Assembly: GCA_946410005.1 (NCBI GenBank)
Contig: CAMJYS010000018.1
Span: 1 to 10,047, forward strand
Direction: 5' to 3'
From: an uncultured Clostridia bacterium
GTDB taxonomy: Bacteria > Bacillota > Clostridia > Oscillospirales > Acutalibacteraceae
Length of the DNA: 10,047 nt
The notes beneath the pieces are model-generated. The model did not search any database. It had not been told where the DNA came from and worked only from the letters and a program-made list of their open reading frames with translations. Below, one piece after another: positions 1 through 10,047 of the stretch (position 1 is its first letter; each line of letters begins with the position of its first letter). A program made the position numbers and the translations under genes.

Positions 1-44
1 ATTGATACGTGTGACTGGAGTTCAGACGTGTGCTCTTCCGATCT
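1..44. other. Untrimmed Illumina adapter (Read 2 / P7 side)
   Basis: Bases 11-44 match the TruSeq Read 2 adapter exactly, from GTGACTGGAG to the final CTCTTCCGATCT. Bases 1-10 are either 'AT' from the end of P7 plus an 8-base i7 index, or a damaged start of P5 (8 of 10 bases agree with AATGATACGG). This is not organismal DNA. Genuine sequence begins at about base 45, and the gene running off this edge is truncated by it. Confidence 0.97.
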
Positions 45-1009
45 TTTTTGCTTGTCAATAATTCGTTTGGTTCAACAGATGTATTAACTTTTATTGGGCG
101 ATTTAAACTGTCATAATCGGCTCTGCTAAGTGTAATCATAAATTGCCCGTTAATAGGAAATAACGATTTTCTTGTTTGGGCTTTTTCTACTAAATTTTTT
201 TGATCACAAAAAGTATTAAATTCTTTTTCATAATTGCGCTCAGTGTCATACCACAATTCTTCAAATTTTGATAGCCACTCTTCACTTGATTCGAATTCTT
301 TTTTTATCTTATCAGCTTCAACACTATCATATTTTTTATTGCTTTTTAATAATTCAGAAATTTTACAACTACTATTTATATATAGTTGTCTGCTATTATA
401 TAAATAATCATCATCAGGGTCTCCATCAGAGTATTGTTCAAATTTTTCTTGTTTAAATAACTTAAAAACATCGCTCCATCCGAATTGAGCAAATAGTACG
501 CTATCTTCTTGATTACCGGTATGCCCCAATTTATTATACATTAAAGGTTTTAAATATATTTCTTTTTCGCCTGACATATATTCAAAAATTGATTTCATAG
601 CTTCTATTTTATTTAAAGTTTGCTCATCTATATCGCTCACGTGTTGATTATAACTAAAATTAATTATCCACTCACGAAAAGCATCGATGCTGTATAGTTG
701 TTGAAGCATTGCATTCATATAACAAGAATTGCCGACGTTATATAAGCCGTTATTTATTCCCAATTCATCTAGTTCTTCTTTTGTTCTATATTTGGGCTGT
801 AATGATAATATAGCGCTGGTCAACACCATCAATGACCCGGCTGCTAAACCATAATACGCTATCTTGTCTTTTGTAGACATTTTTTTATTAGATAATGAAG
901 AAGTGTTATTTTTTATTTTGCTGTAATTATTACCAGTAGCAGTACAAGGTTGGTATATTAAAGATAATGATAAAATTACAGATAAAATTCTATTTATATG
1001 TTTTTTCAA
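45..1009 (-). CDS. Ubiquitin-specific protease-like protein (peptidase C19 fold), N-terminally anchored or secreted; 3'-partial
   Basis: The frame is open for 321 codons and runs into the adapter without a stop. The start is TTG at 1009: AAAGGAAAG lies 6 bases upstream, an in-frame TAG sits at 1030-1028, and the first ATG (codon 44, 880) has no ribosome site. Residues 1-23 (MKKHINR, then a hydrophobic run) look like a signal peptide, and residues 51-70 form a second hydrophobic segment. Residues 88-105, GLYNVGNSCYMNAMLQQL, are a near-perfect USP Cys box with nucleophile Cys96 and oxyanion-hole Asn91. QEDSVLF (167-173) matches the QQDSxEF box, with Leu in place of Glu. FPINGQFMITLSRADYD (284-300), then KV and P-ELL, match the USP strand before the His box. 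The His box itself is beyond the edge. No zinc-ribbon Cys pairs are seen. USPs cleave ubiquitin from proteins. Bacterial C19 proteins are known, e.g. in Amoebophilus. A role as a host-directed effector is inference. Confidence 0.85.
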
Positions 1010-1015
1010 ATATAT

Positions 1016-1024
1016 CTTTCCTTT
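1016..1024 (-). promoter_or_regulatory. Ribosome binding site deciding the TTG start of the USP-like gene
   Basis: On the minus strand AAAGGAAAG stands 6 bases before TTG at 1009. No other Shine-Dalgarno-like sequence precedes the later in-frame ATG at 880, which would also remove the signal-peptide-like N-terminus. TTG is therefore the better-supported start. Confidence 0.7.
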
Positions 1025-1046
1025 CTGCTATATAATTTATAAACAT

Positions 1047-1075
1047 ATTATACCACAAAATAAAACTAATTTCAA
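1047..1075 (-). promoter_or_regulatory. Sigma-A-type promoter of the USP-like gene
   Basis: On the minus strand TTGAAA (1070-1075) and a perfect TATAAT (1047-1052) are separated by exactly 17 bases. TGG directly precedes the -10 box, giving an extended -10. Transcription would begin near 1040, leaving about 30 bases of leader. The -35 box lies inside the terminator hairpin of the upstream operon. The gene therefore appears to be transcribed independently of the housekeeping operon. Confidence 0.75.
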
Positions 1076-1095
1076 GTGTTTTGAAATTAGTTTTA
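1061..1095 (-). terminator. Intrinsic terminator of the eight-gene operon
   Basis: A perfect 15-bp inverted repeat (1061-1075 with 1081-1095) encloses the 5-base loop 1076-1080. It lies 36 bases after the stop codon of the dehydratase gene. On the minus strand the stem ends in TTTTA and continues TTTTG, giving an imperfect U-rich tail. The stem is AT-rich, so it is weaker than a GC-rich terminator, and because the repeat is symmetrical it could also act on plus-strand transcripts. Confidence 0.65.
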
Positions 1096-1131
1096 ATATT
1101 TTGAATATATTTCTAAAAACAAACATATAAA

Positions 1132-3003
1132 TCAAATATTTTTAGTATGTTTGAATGTCGGAACCATTTTTAAAAGCATTTCTAAAATGTCAGACATACT
1201 ACCATTTGACGAAATATTTCTTAATTTTTCCAAATCATTTAAAAATTCTTCAGAATTAATATTAATCGGGTGACCAATATATATTTTTTTGTTTTCGGTT
1301 TTCTTCATTCCTTCTTCATCCATAAGAAGTTCTTCATAAATTTTTTCGCCAGGACGTAAACCGGTATATTCAATTTTTATATCTTCATGCGGTATAAATC
1401 CCGAAAGCCGTATTAAGTTCTCCGCTAAATCCTTTATTTTTACGGGTAAACCCATATCCAAAACAAATATCTCGCCTCCCTTAGCCAAACTACCCGCTGT
1501 TAAAACTAAGGAAACCGCTTCCGGTATGGTCATAAAATATCTTATTATTTCAGGATGCGTTACCGTAACAGGCCCCATTTTTTGAATTTGCTTTTCAAAA
1601 AGCGGTATAACAGAACCATTTGAACCTAACACATTACCAAACCTTACGGCAACGAATTCAGTTTTACTTGTTTTATCTTTATTTTGAACCATCATTTCGC
1701 AAATTCTTTTAGTTGCACCCATAACATTTGTCGGATTTACAGCTTTATCGGTAGAAATTTGAATGAATTTTTTTACATTGTACTTATCTGATAAATTCAC
1801 TAAATTTAACGTACCGAAAACATTATTCTTTACTGCTTCATCAACGTTTTTTTCCATTAGTGGAACATGTTTATGTGCCGCGGCATGAAAAACTACGTCT
1901 ATATTTTCTTTTATAAAAATGTCTTCAAGTTCTTTTAAATCGCATATCGTAACAATTTCAACGGATAAATTTAAAGAATCAGAATATTTCATTTTCAATT
2001 CTTGTTGAATATTATAGGCACTATTTTCATAAATATCTAAAATTATTAGCTTTTTAGGTGAAAGTTCCGAAATTTGCCGACAAAGCTCCGAACCTATCGA
2101 CCCGCCCCCGCCGGTCACCAATACAGTCTTATCAATCAAATAATCTCCGTATTGTTTTTTATCGAAAATTATCGGTTCCCTGCCAAGCAAGTCTTCGACT
2201 TTTATTTTTCTCATTGCAGAAAAAACAGAAGTTCCTGACGTCATGATTTCATAAATATTCGGAATTATTTTTACTTCTAAATTTGTTTTTGCACAAATAT
2301 CTAAAATTTCCCGTCTTTTCGAATTCGAAATAGATATAATGGAAAAAAGAATTACGTCTATATTTAATTTTTGGCAAATTTCAGGGATTCTGCTCGTAGT
2401 TCCTTCGACTTTTACTCCCATAATCTTTCTGCCGATTTTTTCGCTGTCATCGTCAACAATTGCAATGGGCTTGTATTCACCCGAAGGATGTTTAAAAACT
2501 TCTTTCAAAAACATTGCGGTAGAATCTCCGCCGCCGATAATTAACATTCTTTTTTGGGGTCTACCGGAATTTGAAGAAACATTGTCCAAAAGTCGATTGA
2601 CTCTGTAAAGCACTCTGAACATGAAAATGCTGAAAATAGAAGTCACCAAAAAAATAAAATACATTCTGGGACTCATTTTTATTTGTGTCAATACCGTGAC
2701 AATAAGAAAAACAGTATTTGCCGCAAACGTTGCCATTACAGCGTAAAAAAAATCTATCGCCTCAGCGTATCGCCATATTTTGTCGTACAACTTAAACAGT
2801 AAAAATACAACTAAAAAACAAACGTTCATCACCGAAAGATAAACTAAAAACATTTTATCGAAATTTACAAAAAACAAGCTGTTTTTATTTATCGAATACG
2901 AAAAATAAAACGATATATTCCATATCAAAAAGTCACAAAACAATAATGCGTATTTCCTGTATTTTTTCACGAATCTCCATATAGCATTTTTTATACGTTC
3001 CAT
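1132..3003 (-). CDS. Membrane-bound nucleoside-diphosphate-sugar 4,6-dehydratase (PglF/WbpM/CapD class)
   Basis: This 623-residue protein has the usual length and layout of the large membrane dehydratases. Four N-terminal membrane segments (about 19-37, 50-71, 83-106, 111-131) are followed by a first Rossmann-like domain (MLIIGGGD, 153-160) and a C-terminal extended-SDR catalytic domain. The latter has the NAD(P)-binding GGGGSIG (298-304), AAAHKHVPLME (374-384), STDKAVNP (417-424) and LRPGEKIYEELL (549-560). Met428 replaces the usual Tyr of YxxxK (M428...K432), the S-M-K arrangement known from WbpM-type enzymes. The family converts UDP-GlcNAc to the 4-keto-6-deoxy sugar that feeds surface polysaccharide or glycan synthesis. 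The exact sugar substrate here is not known. ATG at 3003 is preceded by AAGGA. It is the last gene of the operon, 23 bp after upp. Confidence 0.93.
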   Translation of the reverse strand: MERIKNAIWRFVKKYRKYALLFCDFLIWNISFYFSYSINKNSLFFVNFDKMFLVYLSVMNVCFLVVFLLFKLYDKIWRYAEAIDFFYAVMATFAANTVFLIVTVLTQIKMSPRMYFIFLVTSIFSIFMFRVLYRVNRLLDNVSSNSGRPQKRMLIIGGGDSTAMFLKEVFKHPSGEYKPIAIVDDDSEKIGRKIMGVKVEGTTSRIPEICQKLNIDVILFSIISISNSKRREILDICAKTNLEVKIIPNIYEIMTSGTSVFSAMRKIKVEDLLGREPIIFDKKQYGDYLIDKTVLVTGGGGSIGSELCRQISELSPKKLIILDIYENSAYNIQQELKMKYSDSLNLSVEIVTICDLKELEDIFIKENIDVVFHAAAHKHVPLMEKNVDEAVKNNVFGTLNLVNLSDKYNVKKFIQISTDKAVNPTNVMGATKRICEMMVQNKDKTSKTEFVAVRFGNVLGSNGSVIPLFEKQIQKMGPVTVTHPEIIRYFMTIPEAVSLVLTAGSLAKGGEIFVLDMGLPVKIKDLAENLIRLSGFIPHEDIKIEYTGLRPGEKIYEELLMDEEGMKKTENKKIYIGHPININSEEFLNDLEKLRNISSNGSMSDILEMLLKMVPTFKHTKNI

Positions 3004-3026
3004 ATATTTTTCCTTTTTTAATTTTT

Positions 3027-3665
3027 TTATTTGGTACCGAATATTCTGTCGCCTGCATCACCGAGGCCGGGTACTATGTATCCGTCTTTATTTAAACATT
3101 TGTCTTTTGACGCACAATAAATTTTTACGTCCGGATGAGCTTTTGTTACGGCTTCAATTCCTTCCGGAGAAGCAATAATGCACATAAATTTGATTGAGGC
3201 AGGGTTATGTTTTTTTATTCCGGAAATAGCGTCGATAGCTGAGCCTCCCGTTGCTAACATCGGGTCTAAAACGATAACATCGCCGCCATTTATATCGCTT
3301 GGCAATTTGCAATAATATTCAATCGGCTTAAGAGTTTCGGGGTCACGATAAAGTCCAATATGCCCGATTCTTGCGGTAGGAAGTAAACTTGTAACGCCTT
3401 CTACCATACCAATCCCAGCTCTTAAAATCGGTACAATTGACAAATGCGGTTCTGCCAAAACTTTGAACACAGAAGTTGTTATAGGGGTTTCAACTTCAAT
3501 TTCTTTTAGCGGTAAATCCCGAAGCGCTTCGTAACACATTAATCTTGTAACTTCAATAATTAATTCTCTAAATTCTTTCGAGCTTGTGTTTTTATCTCTC
3601 AAAAGAGTTATTTTATGCTTGATTAAAGGGTGATTCATAACAAAAACATTTTTTGGTTCATTCAT
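3027..3665 (-). CDS. upp: Uracil phosphoribosyltransferase
   Basis: The 212-residue protein is full length for Upp, which makes UMP from uracil and PRPP in pyrimidine salvage in the cytoplasm. It shows [11 protein letters not shown] (80-90), the PRPP-binding loop [14 protein letters not shown] (130-143), and the C-terminal uracil-binding segment [17 protein letters not shown] (196-212). The ATG abuts the rpiB stop (TAAATG), so the two genes share no spacer and translation is probably coupled. The overall sequence resembles clostridial Upp. Together with rpiB it links ribose-5-phosphate (PRPP precursor) supply to nucleotide salvage, which is inference from adjacency. No pyrimidine-responsive attenuator is visible, as there is no leader. 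Confidence 0.97.
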
Positions 3666-4121
3666 TTAAAATTCCTCCTTAAAATTCACATTTTCAATAG
3701 CTTTTATTTTATTTACTCGATTTAAATGCCGTCCACTTTCAAAATCGGTATTTAAAAACGACTTTATAATTTCTTTTGCAGTTTCAAAATCAATAAACCT
3801 TGCGCCTAAACATAAAACATTTGCGTTATTGTGTTTTCTTGATAATTCAGCGCATTCAGACGAATAGCAAAGCGCAGCTCTGACATTTTTTGTTTTATTT
3901 GCAACGATTGAAACACCTATTCCGCTTCCGCAAACTAAAATTCCTTTCGAGTTTTCGTTTTGTGATACATATTTCGATACTTCTTTTGCAAAATCAGGAT
4001 AATCGCAAGAGTCGGTCGAGTTTGTTCCAAAATCAATATAGTTTATATCGTTGCCATTCATATATTCTTTGATTTTTTCTTTTAATTCGTATCCGGCGTG
4101 GTCTGAACCGATTGCAATCAT
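3666..4121 (-). CDS. rpiB: Ribose-5-phosphate isomerase B
   Basis: The 151-residue protein belongs to the RpiB/LacAB family, which interconverts ribose 5-phosphate and ribulose 5-phosphate in the pentose phosphate pathway. Visible hallmarks are GSDHAGYELK (5-14), DYPDFA (40-45), GILVCGSGIGVSIVANK (60-76) with the probable catalytic-base Cys64, SRKHNNANVLCLGAR (94-108) with His97 at the ring-opening position, and FESGRHLNRVNKI (127-139). Cys64 is typical of the bacterial Cys-type enzymes. The start ATG lies 2 bp after the tsaB stop, with only a weak AAAGG upstream, so translational coupling is likely. Allose-phosphate isomerase or LacA/B alternatives are less likely, because the neighbours include no sugar catabolism genes. 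Confidence 0.95.
   Translation of the reverse strand: MIAIGSDHAGYELKEKIKEYMNGNDINYIDFGTNSTDSCDYPDFAKEVSKYVSQNENSKGILVCGSGIGVSIVANKTKNVRAALCYSSECAELSRKHNNANVLCLGARFIDFETAKEIIKSFLNTDFESGRHLNRVNKIKAIENVNFKEEF
3674..3680 (-). promoter_or_regulatory. Ribosome binding site of upp, embedded in the rpiB coding end
   Basis: On the minus strand a perfect AAGGAGG lies 8 bases before the upp ATG at 3665. The same bases encode Lys-Glu near the C-terminus of RpiB (ending FKEEF), so the ribosome site of one gene constrains the protein end of the other. Confidence 0.85.
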
Positions 4122-4123
4122 TT

Positions 4124-4837
4124 TTAATCGCCAACCTTTAATTTGTTTTCTTTAAGTAATCTTTCCGCCTGAGAGAGCTTCAAATAATTTATCGGCAAAT
4201 TATAGCTGTCGGATAAATTATTTTGGTTTTTCATTTCTTGTGCTACAAAAGCGACGTTTGAAGCTTTTATAAATTTGTTTCTGTCTTTAATCGGAAAGAC
4301 TTTTAATTTGTCGCTTGATTTTAATATATCATAACATATTATAGCACTATCTCCGACAAATCGTAAATCGCCCTCTAAGTTTTTAAAATCGTTCGCTATT
4401 TCATCCAGCGTTACGGATTTATCGTCAGTAAGTCTTGTGATAACTTTATTTTCCGACTTAAAAACAGCGCTGTAAATTTCGTTTGTTCTTGAATTTATAG
4501 CGGAATATATAAAAGAGTTTTCGTCGATAAAATTATATGCAAGTGCATGCAGCGGCGAAATTCCTACGCATGGCTTGTTTGTTACCATTGCAAGCGCTTT
4601 AACAATAGAAACGCCTATCCTAAGCCCCGTAAAAGAACCGGGCCCATTGCAAACTGCGAATAAGTCAATGTCATTTATGTCGGTTTTAGAGTTAGACAGC
4701 ACAGACGCAACCATTGGAGCCAATGTTTCGCTGTGAGTTAATCCGCAATTTGTAAAGGATTCAGAGATAATTTTATCGTCTTCTACAATCGCCACAGAAG
4801 CAGTAGCGGAAGACGAATCAACGGCAAGTATTTTCAA
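4124..4837 (-). CDS. tsaB: tRNA threonylcarbamoyladenosine biosynthesis protein TsaB
   Basis: This 237-residue ASKHA-fold protein is the TsaD partner in the complex that makes t6A37 on ANN-decoding tRNAs. It carries the family signature NGPGSFTGLRIG (64-75), HSE (35-37), and a C-terminal YLKLSQAERLLKE. The TTG start at 4837 was chosen because AAGGAG (4847-4852) is 9 bases upstream and the protein then begins MKILAVDSSS, as TsaB proteins do. The in-frame ATG at 4846 directly touches the ribosome site, and TTG at 4855 overlaps it. The gene overlaps tsaE by 20 bp in another frame. TsaD and TsaC are not in the window. Confidence 0.95.
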   Translation of the reverse strand: MKILAVDSSSATASVAIVEDDKIISESFTNCGLTHSETLAPMVASVLSNSKTDINDIDLFAVCNGPGSFTGLRIGVSIVKALAMVTNKPCVGISPLHALAYNFIDENSFIYSAINSRTNEIYSAVFKSENKVITRLTDDKSVTLDEIANDFKNLEGDLRFVGDSAIICYDILKSSDKLKVFPIKDRNKFIKASNVAFVAQEMKNQNNLSDSYNLPINYLKLSQAERLLKENKLKVGD

Positions 4838-5261
4838 AATTTTCATCTCCTTCAATAGTTATAATTCTTTCATTTTCATAAGATGTTTTTTCTATTGATA
4901 TTTTAATAGCACTTTTGGGAATAAAATTTTCTATATTTTCGCTCCATTCAATTAGCATAACGCCGGAATCTATATAATCAAAAAAACCGGTAGATTCTAA
5001 ATCTTCCGGCGTGTTTACTCGATACATATCAAAATGATATATAGTAAATTTATCCGTTTGATATTCGTTAATAATCGAAAAGGTAGGACTGGAAACTTCA
5101 TTTTCTATATTAAAATATTTTGCAATTCCACGTATAAACGCAGTTTTTCCAACACCAAGGTCACCGAAAAAAGCAATAATTTCGTTACCTACTAAATTTT
5201 TAGCAATATTTTGAGCTATATTTTCAGTTTCAGATAATGAACAACTTTTTATTTTTAACAT
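4818..5261 (-). CDS. tsaE: tRNA threonylcarbamoyladenosine biosynthesis ATPase TsaE
   Basis: The 147-residue P-loop protein has the normal length for TsaE, the ATPase that resets the TsaBD complex during t6A synthesis. The Walker A motif GDLGVGKT is at 33-40, SSPTF at 57-61, HFDMYR with Asp78 at 76-81, and LIEWSE at 103-108, all characteristic of the family. The ATG at 5261 follows GAGGAA at short spacing. Its 3' end overlaps tsaB, the classic tsaE-tsaB arrangement in Bacillota, so the two products are probably made in step. It starts 19 bp after the ABC ATPase gene. Confidence 0.96.
   Translation of the reverse strand: MLKIKSCSLSETENIAQNIAKNLVGNEIIAFFGDLGVGKTAFIRGIAKYFNIENEVSSPTFSIINEYQTDKFTIYHFDMYRVNTPEDLESTGFFDYIDSGVMLIEWSENIENFIPKSAIKISIEKTSYENERIITIEGDENFENTCR
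4847..4852 (-). promoter_or_regulatory. Ribosome binding site that fixes the tsaB start
   Basis: AAGGAG on the minus strand lies inside the end of tsaE, 9 bases before TTG at 4837. The two upstream start candidates (ATG 4846, TTG 4855) are respectively adjacent to and overlapping this site, so neither could use it. Confidence 0.7.
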
Positions 5262-5280
5262 ATATTCCTCGATTTATTTT

Positions 5281-6015
5281 TTAAATTAGTTTGTTAAGAA
5301 ATTTGCTTACACGAACATTTTCGCAATTTTTGAATAATTTTTCCGGAGTTTCGTCTAAAATAATTTCTCCATTATCCATAAAAAGCACTCTTGAAGCTAT
5401 ATTTTTAACGAATGACATATCATGAGTTACAACAACCATAGTCATGCCGTGTCTAGCAATATCAGACATAACAGCTACGACTTCGTTCACCATTTCAGGG
5501 TCAAGCGCAGAGGTGGGTTCATCGAAAAGCATTAATTCAGGTTTCATAACGAGTGACCTTACAATAGCGATGCGCTGTTTTTGACCACCTGAAAGTTGTG
5601 ACGGATAATGATTCGCTTTGTCATCCAGTCCAACTTTTTTTAATAATTCATTAGCATAATATTCGGCTTTTTCTTTTGAGTAAATTTTTAGCGAAACAGG
5701 AGCCAGTGTTATATTTTGCATAATAGTTAAGTGCGGAAAAAGATTAAAGTGCTGAAAAACCATGCCGATATTTTTTCTTATTAGGTCTAAATTACAATTC
5801 TTCGCTGTAATATCTGTACCTTTAAAAAATATAGATCCGCTCGAAGGTTTTTCTAAACCGTTAAGGCACCTCAAAAAAGTACTTTTTCCAGAGCCTGACG
5901 GCCCAATTACAGCTACTTTTTCGCCTTTTTGTATATCTACGTTTATGCCGTCTAATATTCTTAAAAGTTTGTTTTCTTGATGAAATTCTTTATATAAATT
6001 TTTAACGCTTATCAT
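5281..6015 (-). CDS. Polar amino-acid ABC importer, ATP-binding subunit (GlnQ/ArtP type)
   Basis: This 244-residue ATPase is full length for the family that powers polar amino-acid uptake. In order: Walker A GPSGSGKST (38-46), Q-loop MVFQHFNLFP with Gln88, signature LSGGQKQR (141-148), Walker B LMLFDE (161-166), the D-loop SALD, and switch His198 in VVVTHDM. It overlaps the end of the fused binding-protein/permease gene by 14 bp, and it would form a homodimer under that permease. The ATG at 6015 has AAAGGA about 12 bases upstream, slightly far, which fits coupling to the upstream gene. The substrate (glutamine, arginine, cystine or another) cannot be read from the ATPase. Confidence 0.95.
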   Translation of the reverse strand: MISVKNLYKEFHQENKLLRILDGINVDIQKGEKVAVIGPSGSGKSTFLRCLNGLEKPSSGSIFFKGTDITAKNCNLDLIRKNIGMVFQHFNLFPHLTIMQNITLAPVSLKIYSKEKAEYYANELLKKVGLDDKANHYPSQLSGGQKQRIAIVRSLVMKPELMLFDEPTSALDPEMVNEVVAVMSDIARHGMTMVVVTHDMSFVKNIASRVLFMDNGEIILDETPEKLFKNCENVRVSKFLNKLI

Positions 6016-9994: not shown

Positions 9995-10047
9995 AGATCG
10001 GAAGAGCGTCGGGTAGGGAAAGAGTGTAGATCTCGGTGGTCGCCGTA
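9995..10047. other. Untrimmed Illumina adapter (P5 / universal side)
   Basis: These 53 bases are the reverse complement of the TruSeq universal adapter, from AGATCGGAAGAGCGTC to GGTCGCCGTA, with a single mismatch (G for T at 10012). This is technical sequence. The MBL-fold gene is truncated at 9994. Confidence 0.97.

Follow-up and report, generated by a model that had tools for sequence, protein, structure and literature searches.

We analysed a 10,047-nucleotide stretch of DNA (the window; contig CAMJYS010000018.1 of GenBank assembly GCA_946410005.1) from an uncultured Clostridia bacterium of the family Acutalibacteraceae, one end of which carries part of a gene for a ubiquitin-specific protease (USP). 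The 5' part of this gene lies on the minus strand at 45..1009, and its frame runs through 321 whole codons (47-1009) from a TTG start until it is truncated by the contig end. Positions 1..44 read as Illumina adapter, and the boundary at 45 set by the first-pass annotation of this DNA was correct; the second end of the window is adapter as well (about 9995-10047). Codon 322 spans the adapter junction and reads Lys in the window and Asn in an intact copy of the protein (P0001), and the open frame closes with a false tail of 14 residues (DRKSTRLNSSHTYQ) encoded by adapter. In this assembly, adapter left untrimmed at contig ends, both here and on another contig of the genome, C62, adds false tails such as DRKSTRLNSSH to proteins.

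The missing 3' end of the gene was recovered. Contig C62 of the same genome (G000; 0.80 Mb in 125 contigs, 78% completeness), which also ends in adapter, holds the 3' part with the motifs GGHYYSYK and YEYNDS. In addition, 14 of 1494 candidates in a protein search had E-values no higher than 0.001; one of them is P0001, an intact public protein of 398 amino acids that is identical to the window piece (residues 1-321) and to the C62 piece (317-398). The His part of the enzyme is supplied by both C62 and P0001. The two gene pieces were analysed separately and not joined.

A USP-family protease with a full set of catalytic residues

Judged by its sequence, the gene encodes a cysteine protease of the USP family (Pfam UCH, MEROPS C19), as had been proposed from its motifs. 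The window piece matched the Pfam UCH profile with 50.6 bits (cut-off 23.9; E 2.6e-13) over profile positions 2-175 of 254. When the whole genome was searched with this profile, the window part covered positions 2-181 and C62 covered 182-246 with an E-value of its own of 1.4e-14; these two complementary matches on two contigs rule out a chance motif match. For P0001 the match spanned positions 2-245 of 254 (5.5e-30). Its best match among sequences in the PDB was USP28 (6.8e-15), and a profile of eight relatives (A2) matched USP25 (9.8e-21). The solved USPs that were matched also include Ubp6 and FAF-X, and the alignments of the best matches cover mainly the Cys region and the His region.

P0001 contains Asn91 (oxyanion), Cys96 (nucleophile), His349 and Asn366, which is the full residue set. 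Three landmarks lie on the minus strand of the window and were located by frame translation: the Cys box GLYNVGNSCYMNAMLQQL (695..748, residues 88-105), with the oxyanion Asn five residues before Cys96; the QQD-type box QEDSVLF (491..511, residues 167-173); and the strand FMITLSRADYD (110..142, residues 290-300), which leads toward the His box and was also placed by the PDB matches. All three are present as the first-pass annotation described them, and the catalytic His, whose lack would have counted against the first-pass annotation, was found downstream, on C62 and in P0001, directly followed by an aromatic residue (GGHYYSYK). The lack of a zinc ribbon was confirmed by the lack of any CxxC in P0001. 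Zinc ribbons in the fingers of USPs are common, not universal, and so not strictly defining. Catalytic Cys and His with the aromatic neighbor recurred in 14/14 USP proteins from the 10 other genomes of the genus that were analysed, and the third catalytic place was Asn or Asp in 13 of these 14 (Ser in L005).

The rest of the domain was less constant. Among 13 public alleles (P0001-P0013), mean pairwise identity fell from 0.99 (Cys box) and 0.96 (His box) to 0.56 in the middle (171-287). The Glu of the QQD box contacts ubiquitin Arg72. That Leu takes its place was correctly noted for this allele (P0001), but does not hold for the whole lineage, as P0009, which is 75% identical, has Glu; the residue is Tyr in P0010-P0013 and Ala in P0016. 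Such differences among close relatives, and the fact that the would-be modifier-holding middle is the variable part, would speak for a USP-fold protease whose substrate is some other ubiquitin-like modifier of the host, or a host ubiquitin ester, instead of ordinary chains. In line with this, the fingers have been lost from a USP-type effector of a different bacterium, which binds ubiquitin in another way (PMC10719079; here and below, statements on cited papers refer to the excerpts of them at hand). The same source describes a conserved Glu contacting ubiquitin Arg72, which could be changed in that enzyme with little effect. On the other hand, the aromatic residue kept after the His is of the kind that work on Simkania calls a gatekeeper (PMC10643670), and we consider a substrate other than ordinary ubiquitin chains unlikely.

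A divergent gene between constant neighbors

Upstream of the USP gene, and like it on the minus strand, lie a polysaccharide-synthesis gene (nucleoside-sugar 4,6-dehydratase-like; 1132..3003) and the housekeeping genes upp, rpiB, tsaB and tsaE (3027..5261), all of them identified by profile and conserved in the comparison with a close relative, G006. Gene order is the same in that genome: tsaE, tsaB, rpiB, upp, sugar dehydratase, USP, then dnaC and dnaD. Contamination by eukaryotic DNA was ruled out, the flanks being bacterial and syntenic with G006. The seven neighbors that were compared share 93-99% protein identity between the two genomes, whereas the USPs at the same chromosomal site share 37% (N part) and 46% (C part). 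At the DNA level, the stretch 1046..5867 (minus strand) is about 95% identical to G006, and identity drops to 50-75% from about 1055 toward the USP. The left edge of similarity was placed 41 bases inside the USP by blastn; we adopted the result of a sliding comparison, in which the drop from 90-100% to 50-75% occurs about 40 bases before the USP start. Identity is back to 95.4% at the end of dnaC. Because the edges of identity around the USP are sharp, this one genome pair suggests that the gene was replaced and did not diverge steadily. Gene gain or loss occurs at the site as well: G006 has three extra genes between USP and dnaC (L072:5951-9052), for a G5/3D-domain protein, a DUF11 protein and a small protein, which are absent from C62 of G000.

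In a second pair of genomes, G004 and G001 (L008/L013), the USPs are 80% identical with a ratio of nonsynonymous to synonymous substitution rates (dN/dS) of 0.32, compared with 90% and 95% identity (0.09 and 0.10) for two neighbors. The USP of this pair is still constrained, but evolving faster than its neighbors. The high divergence at the locus could also be read as the decay of an inactive gene of eukaryotic origin. We give this very little chance, in view of the constraint in the one pair measured, the open catalytic-domain frames, and the Cys and His kept in all 14 congener proteins.

A test for recombination among the public alleles counted 1434/3240 pairs of two-state sites with all four combinations, or 698/1225 among the nine alleles P0001-P0009, which align throughout; the count does not include P0014 or the C62 fragment. 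Because the proteins come from metagenome assemblies, chimeric assembly may contribute to this signal; the middle is also difficult to align across the two allele types. The alleles were compared as proteins and may not all come from the same chromosomal site.

N-terminus, export and expression

The protein begins with a signal-peptide-like segment (residues 1-24; 938..1009, minus strand), in which a hydrophobic core at residues 8-18 with a mean Kyte-Doolittle value of 2.77 follows a +3 n-region. This result comes from a home-made hydrophobicity scan, not a trained predictor, in which five cytosolic proteins of the window reached at most 1.79 and an exported solute-binding/permease protein reached 2.48. 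In P0001 the signal-like segment is followed by a basic linker, a second hydrophobic segment at residues 50-68 (806..862, minus strand; mean 1.67 over 19 residues) that is a possible membrane anchor, and then the protease. A signal-like N-terminus was found in 7 of 13 USPs of the genus (L012 was left out of the scan). We do not claim an N-terminal module shared across USP groups: beyond the source lineages, the search for one found only L009 (E 0.0012), with the rest at 0.03 or worse. One weak match of this search pointed to a GTPase in G000. Two short frames in G010 (L074:1777-2571) combine a signal with a glycine-rich hydrophobic segment like that of the USP N-termini (weak, E 0.03-0.04) and are possible further effectors.

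An alternative to delivery by the Sec pathway is that the USP is the payload of a contractile injection system. In G010 (L070, G010:C1:128000-139000), the USP gene sits between a MORN-repeat gene and a group that it immediately precedes, made up of genes for Cu_amine_oxidN1, Pvc16_N (4e-24), carboxypeptidase-regulatory-like and AAA ATPase proteins, of which the Pvc16 and AAA genes are of contractile-injection type; the USP of G008 likewise adjoins a MORN-repeat protein, with a LysM protein (6.1e-5) some 6 kb off. The USPs that lack a signal-like N-terminus would also fit this route. However, the G010 USP itself has both a signal-like and a second hydrophobic segment, no such genes adjoin the USP in G000 or G006, and no sheath, tube or baseplate family was present among 16 scanned neighbor proteins of G004, G006, G008 and G010 (a genome-wide search was not made). 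Altogether, we think delivery by such a system rather improbable.

The gene has a ribosome-binding-site-like sequence, gaaaggaaag, before its TTG start (1016..1025, minus strand; read directly) and a promoter-like site, TTGAAA-17-TATAAT with a TG (1047..1075, minus strand), which matches 11 of 12 positions; this is a consensus match only, and four such sites occur in the stretch against a mean of 2.9 in shuffles. A 15-bp hairpin followed by T-rich sequence (1061..1095, minus strand; -13.9 kcal/mol, z -7.5) is likely the terminator of the upstream gene, and a terminator scan that needs three G-C pairs listed no terminator, this hairpin included. Because of its own promoter-like site and the hairpin between it and the sugar-dehydratase gene, the USP gene, while beside the housekeeping genes, probably stands outside their operon and may be a transcription unit of its own.

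Distribution of USPs and the type of organism

A Pfam UCH match was present in 11/11 analysed genomes of the genus (0.8-1.3 Mb), and so was a match to the ATP/ADP translocase family (G000:C103 at 1.1e-139). Among 300 genomes of the family, 14 had a UCH match (13 over the cut-off) and 19 a translocase match. The translocase was found in 12 of the 14 USP-bearing genomes and in 7/286 others (Fisher p 5e-15; 2e-10 without the window's genus), in a test that treats two 300-genome family draws as one set, as their handles suggest. At greater distance UCH matches were rare: 1/394 in the order sample (the window's own genome only) and 2/398 in the phylum sample (its own, and one below the cut-off with an internal stop). 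Ankyrin repeats matched in 8 of the 11 congeners, with up to 39 matches; G001 and G004 have 39 and 37 of them in genomes of 1.2 Mb. A contig scan with P0001 alone found no relative, and with alignment A2 three loci were found, two of them in metagenome-assembled genomes (MAGs) from goat jejunum and duodenum. P0001 was unmatched in phage and plasmid collections, which does not support a phage- or plasmid-borne gene.

These data show a host-dependent type of genome, and the organism agrees in gene content and genome size with the intracellular 'small genome clade' of Acutalibacteraceae. The host association that the first-pass annotation had assumed is thus well supported, both by these features and by their agreement with the published account of the clade (PMC10579323); as for its nature, a gut protist is a likelier host than the animal. 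A Roc/Ras GTPase (C7, L083:2758-3876, minus strand; Roc 2.1e-6), with a signal-like N-terminus and a C-terminal hydrophobic stretch, is a second eukaryotic-like protein of the window's genome. C48 and OTU proteases were each found in 0/11 congeners; the controls gave none either, and absence can therefore not be concluded.

The USP itself had been suggested to belong to a divergent subgroup, and we can refine this: the genus contains several USP groups that differ strongly from each other, and this USP belongs to one of them. The tree that suggests these groups was built with a quick method from 33 chosen rows and 251 of 1007 columns and has several long branches; L029 and L037 had been removed first, and the rows do not include L012, L025 or other near-copies. 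The number of USP acquisitions is left unsettled by this tree. The USP of G102 (L020), a 1.1 Mb member of the family without a translocase match, looks canonical: it carries two CxxC pairs of the zinc-ribbon type and starts with a signal-like segment. P0016, the one close relative with an NCBI name, is called a hypothetical protein, and such genes are easily missed.

Ubiquitin-like conjugation systems exist in bacteria, and the enzyme could in principle serve one belonging to the bacterium itself. ThiF/E1-like matches were indeed found in 11/11 congeners, but there is one strong match per genome, in an open frame of 234-263 codons, and that of G000 fits the tRNA-modification enzyme TcdA best of the NCBIfam models, though under the cut-off. 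A further ThiF match over the cut-off occurs only in G004, with two weak ones below it, and the genes beside the window's USP are no conjugation operon. Judged by the ThiF/E1-like genes and the gene neighbors, a role in such a system seems highly improbable.

Discussion

We consider it quite probable that the gene encodes a host-directed deubiquitinase that is exported through its N-terminal signal. In this proposal, a Sec-type signal would carry the USP out of the bacterial cell, and the hydrophobic segment 50-68 may serve as its anchor, either in a host membrane or on the bacterial surface. The Cys96-His349-Asn366 triad would then cleave ubiquitin off host proteins or off the surface or surroundings of the bacterium, and this removal could blunt the ubiquitin-marked destruction of the bacterium. 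Deubiquitinases of other intracellular bacteria counter ubiquitin-marked autophagy (PMC10719079, PMC10643670). The earlier proposal of a factor directed at host ubiquitin is upheld by the protein family together with the host-associated type of genome; from the same evidence, deubiquitinase activity is probable.

Several observations weigh against this proposal. Export by the Sec pathway cannot serve all of these enzymes, because 6 of 13 USPs of the genus have no signal-like N-terminus, and segment 50-68 could be a stop-transfer helix after signal cleavage, leaving the enzyme in the bacterial cytoplasm. With respect to the active enzyme, several alleles have Leu, Tyr, Ala, Ile or Thr where the QQD-box Glu belongs, and P0012 has Val for Gly in GNxC. 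As for host dependence, the translocase match of G004 is weak (9.2e-15), 2 of the 14 USP-bearing genomes of the family are without one (G102; G209, 77% complete), and ankyrin repeats, for which the 78% complete genome of the window gave no match, also match in 5 of 14 control genomes.

More tentatively, the locus can be viewed as a variable effector cassette, in which near-identical strains swap or rapidly remodel the USP at a fixed site while the Cys and His boxes are kept and the middle that would hold ubiquitin is reshuffled. Just as tentative is the idea that a deubiquitinase here varies as surface antigens do, in adaptation to different protist hosts or to host ubiquitin defences. If the locus is such a cassette, it would provide a naturally occurring set of deubiquitinases in which the ubiquitin-binding part is exchanged while the active site hardly changes; such a set could reveal determinants of USP specificity as well as a contest between protist and parasite over ubiquitin. 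What is described here is a family of USP-type deubiquitinases in reduced-genome clostridia of the ruminant gut; the variable locus is new, while the occurrence of such enzymes in this clade was already known in outline.

The closest known system is the small genome clade itself (Ca. Improbicoccus, Ca. Paraimprobicoccus and gut MAGs), whose three studied members live inside termite-gut protists, with MAGs from ruminants and humans as well (PMC10579323). Its genomes resemble those studied here in size (0.86-1.4 Mb, with one exception), in their ATP/ADP translocase and in including ruminant gut MAGs. Small GTPases, kinases, phosphatases and ubiquitinyl hydrolases have been reported from it, and signal peptides were predicted in 20/42 of its eukaryotic-like proteins. 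The hydrolase domains are named in one sentence, and the excerpts of that paper say nothing on their sequence, catalytic residues or variation.

Among more distant bacteria, SnUSP1-3 of the amoeba-associated Simkania negevensis are likewise USP-type deubiquitinases of an intracellular bacterium, with a whole USP domain, its active site and the aromatic gatekeeper, but Simkania is Chlamydia-like and has type III and IV secretion, whereas the clostridial USPs have signal-like N-termini or none (PMC10643670). TssM of a Burkholderia species is a USP-type enzyme that, as is proposed here for the clostridial one, uses a general export route (type II secretion, not an injection machine). It is without the whole Fingers part (PMC10719079); the span from the QQD Asp to the His is 180 residues in P0001, 107 in P0016 and 103 in L010. 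Amoebophilus asiaticus shares an obligate intracellular life, ankyrin proteins, the ATP/ADP translocase and predicted USP genes that are expressed during infection, but belongs to the Bacteroidota, lives in amoebae and has other secretion machinery (PMC8831229). Finally, the eukaryotic USP25/28, FAF-X/USP9X and Ubp6 gave the best sequence matches among solved structures; this likeness is weak and mainly confined to the Cys and His regions, and the window allele differs from them in having no zinc ribbon.
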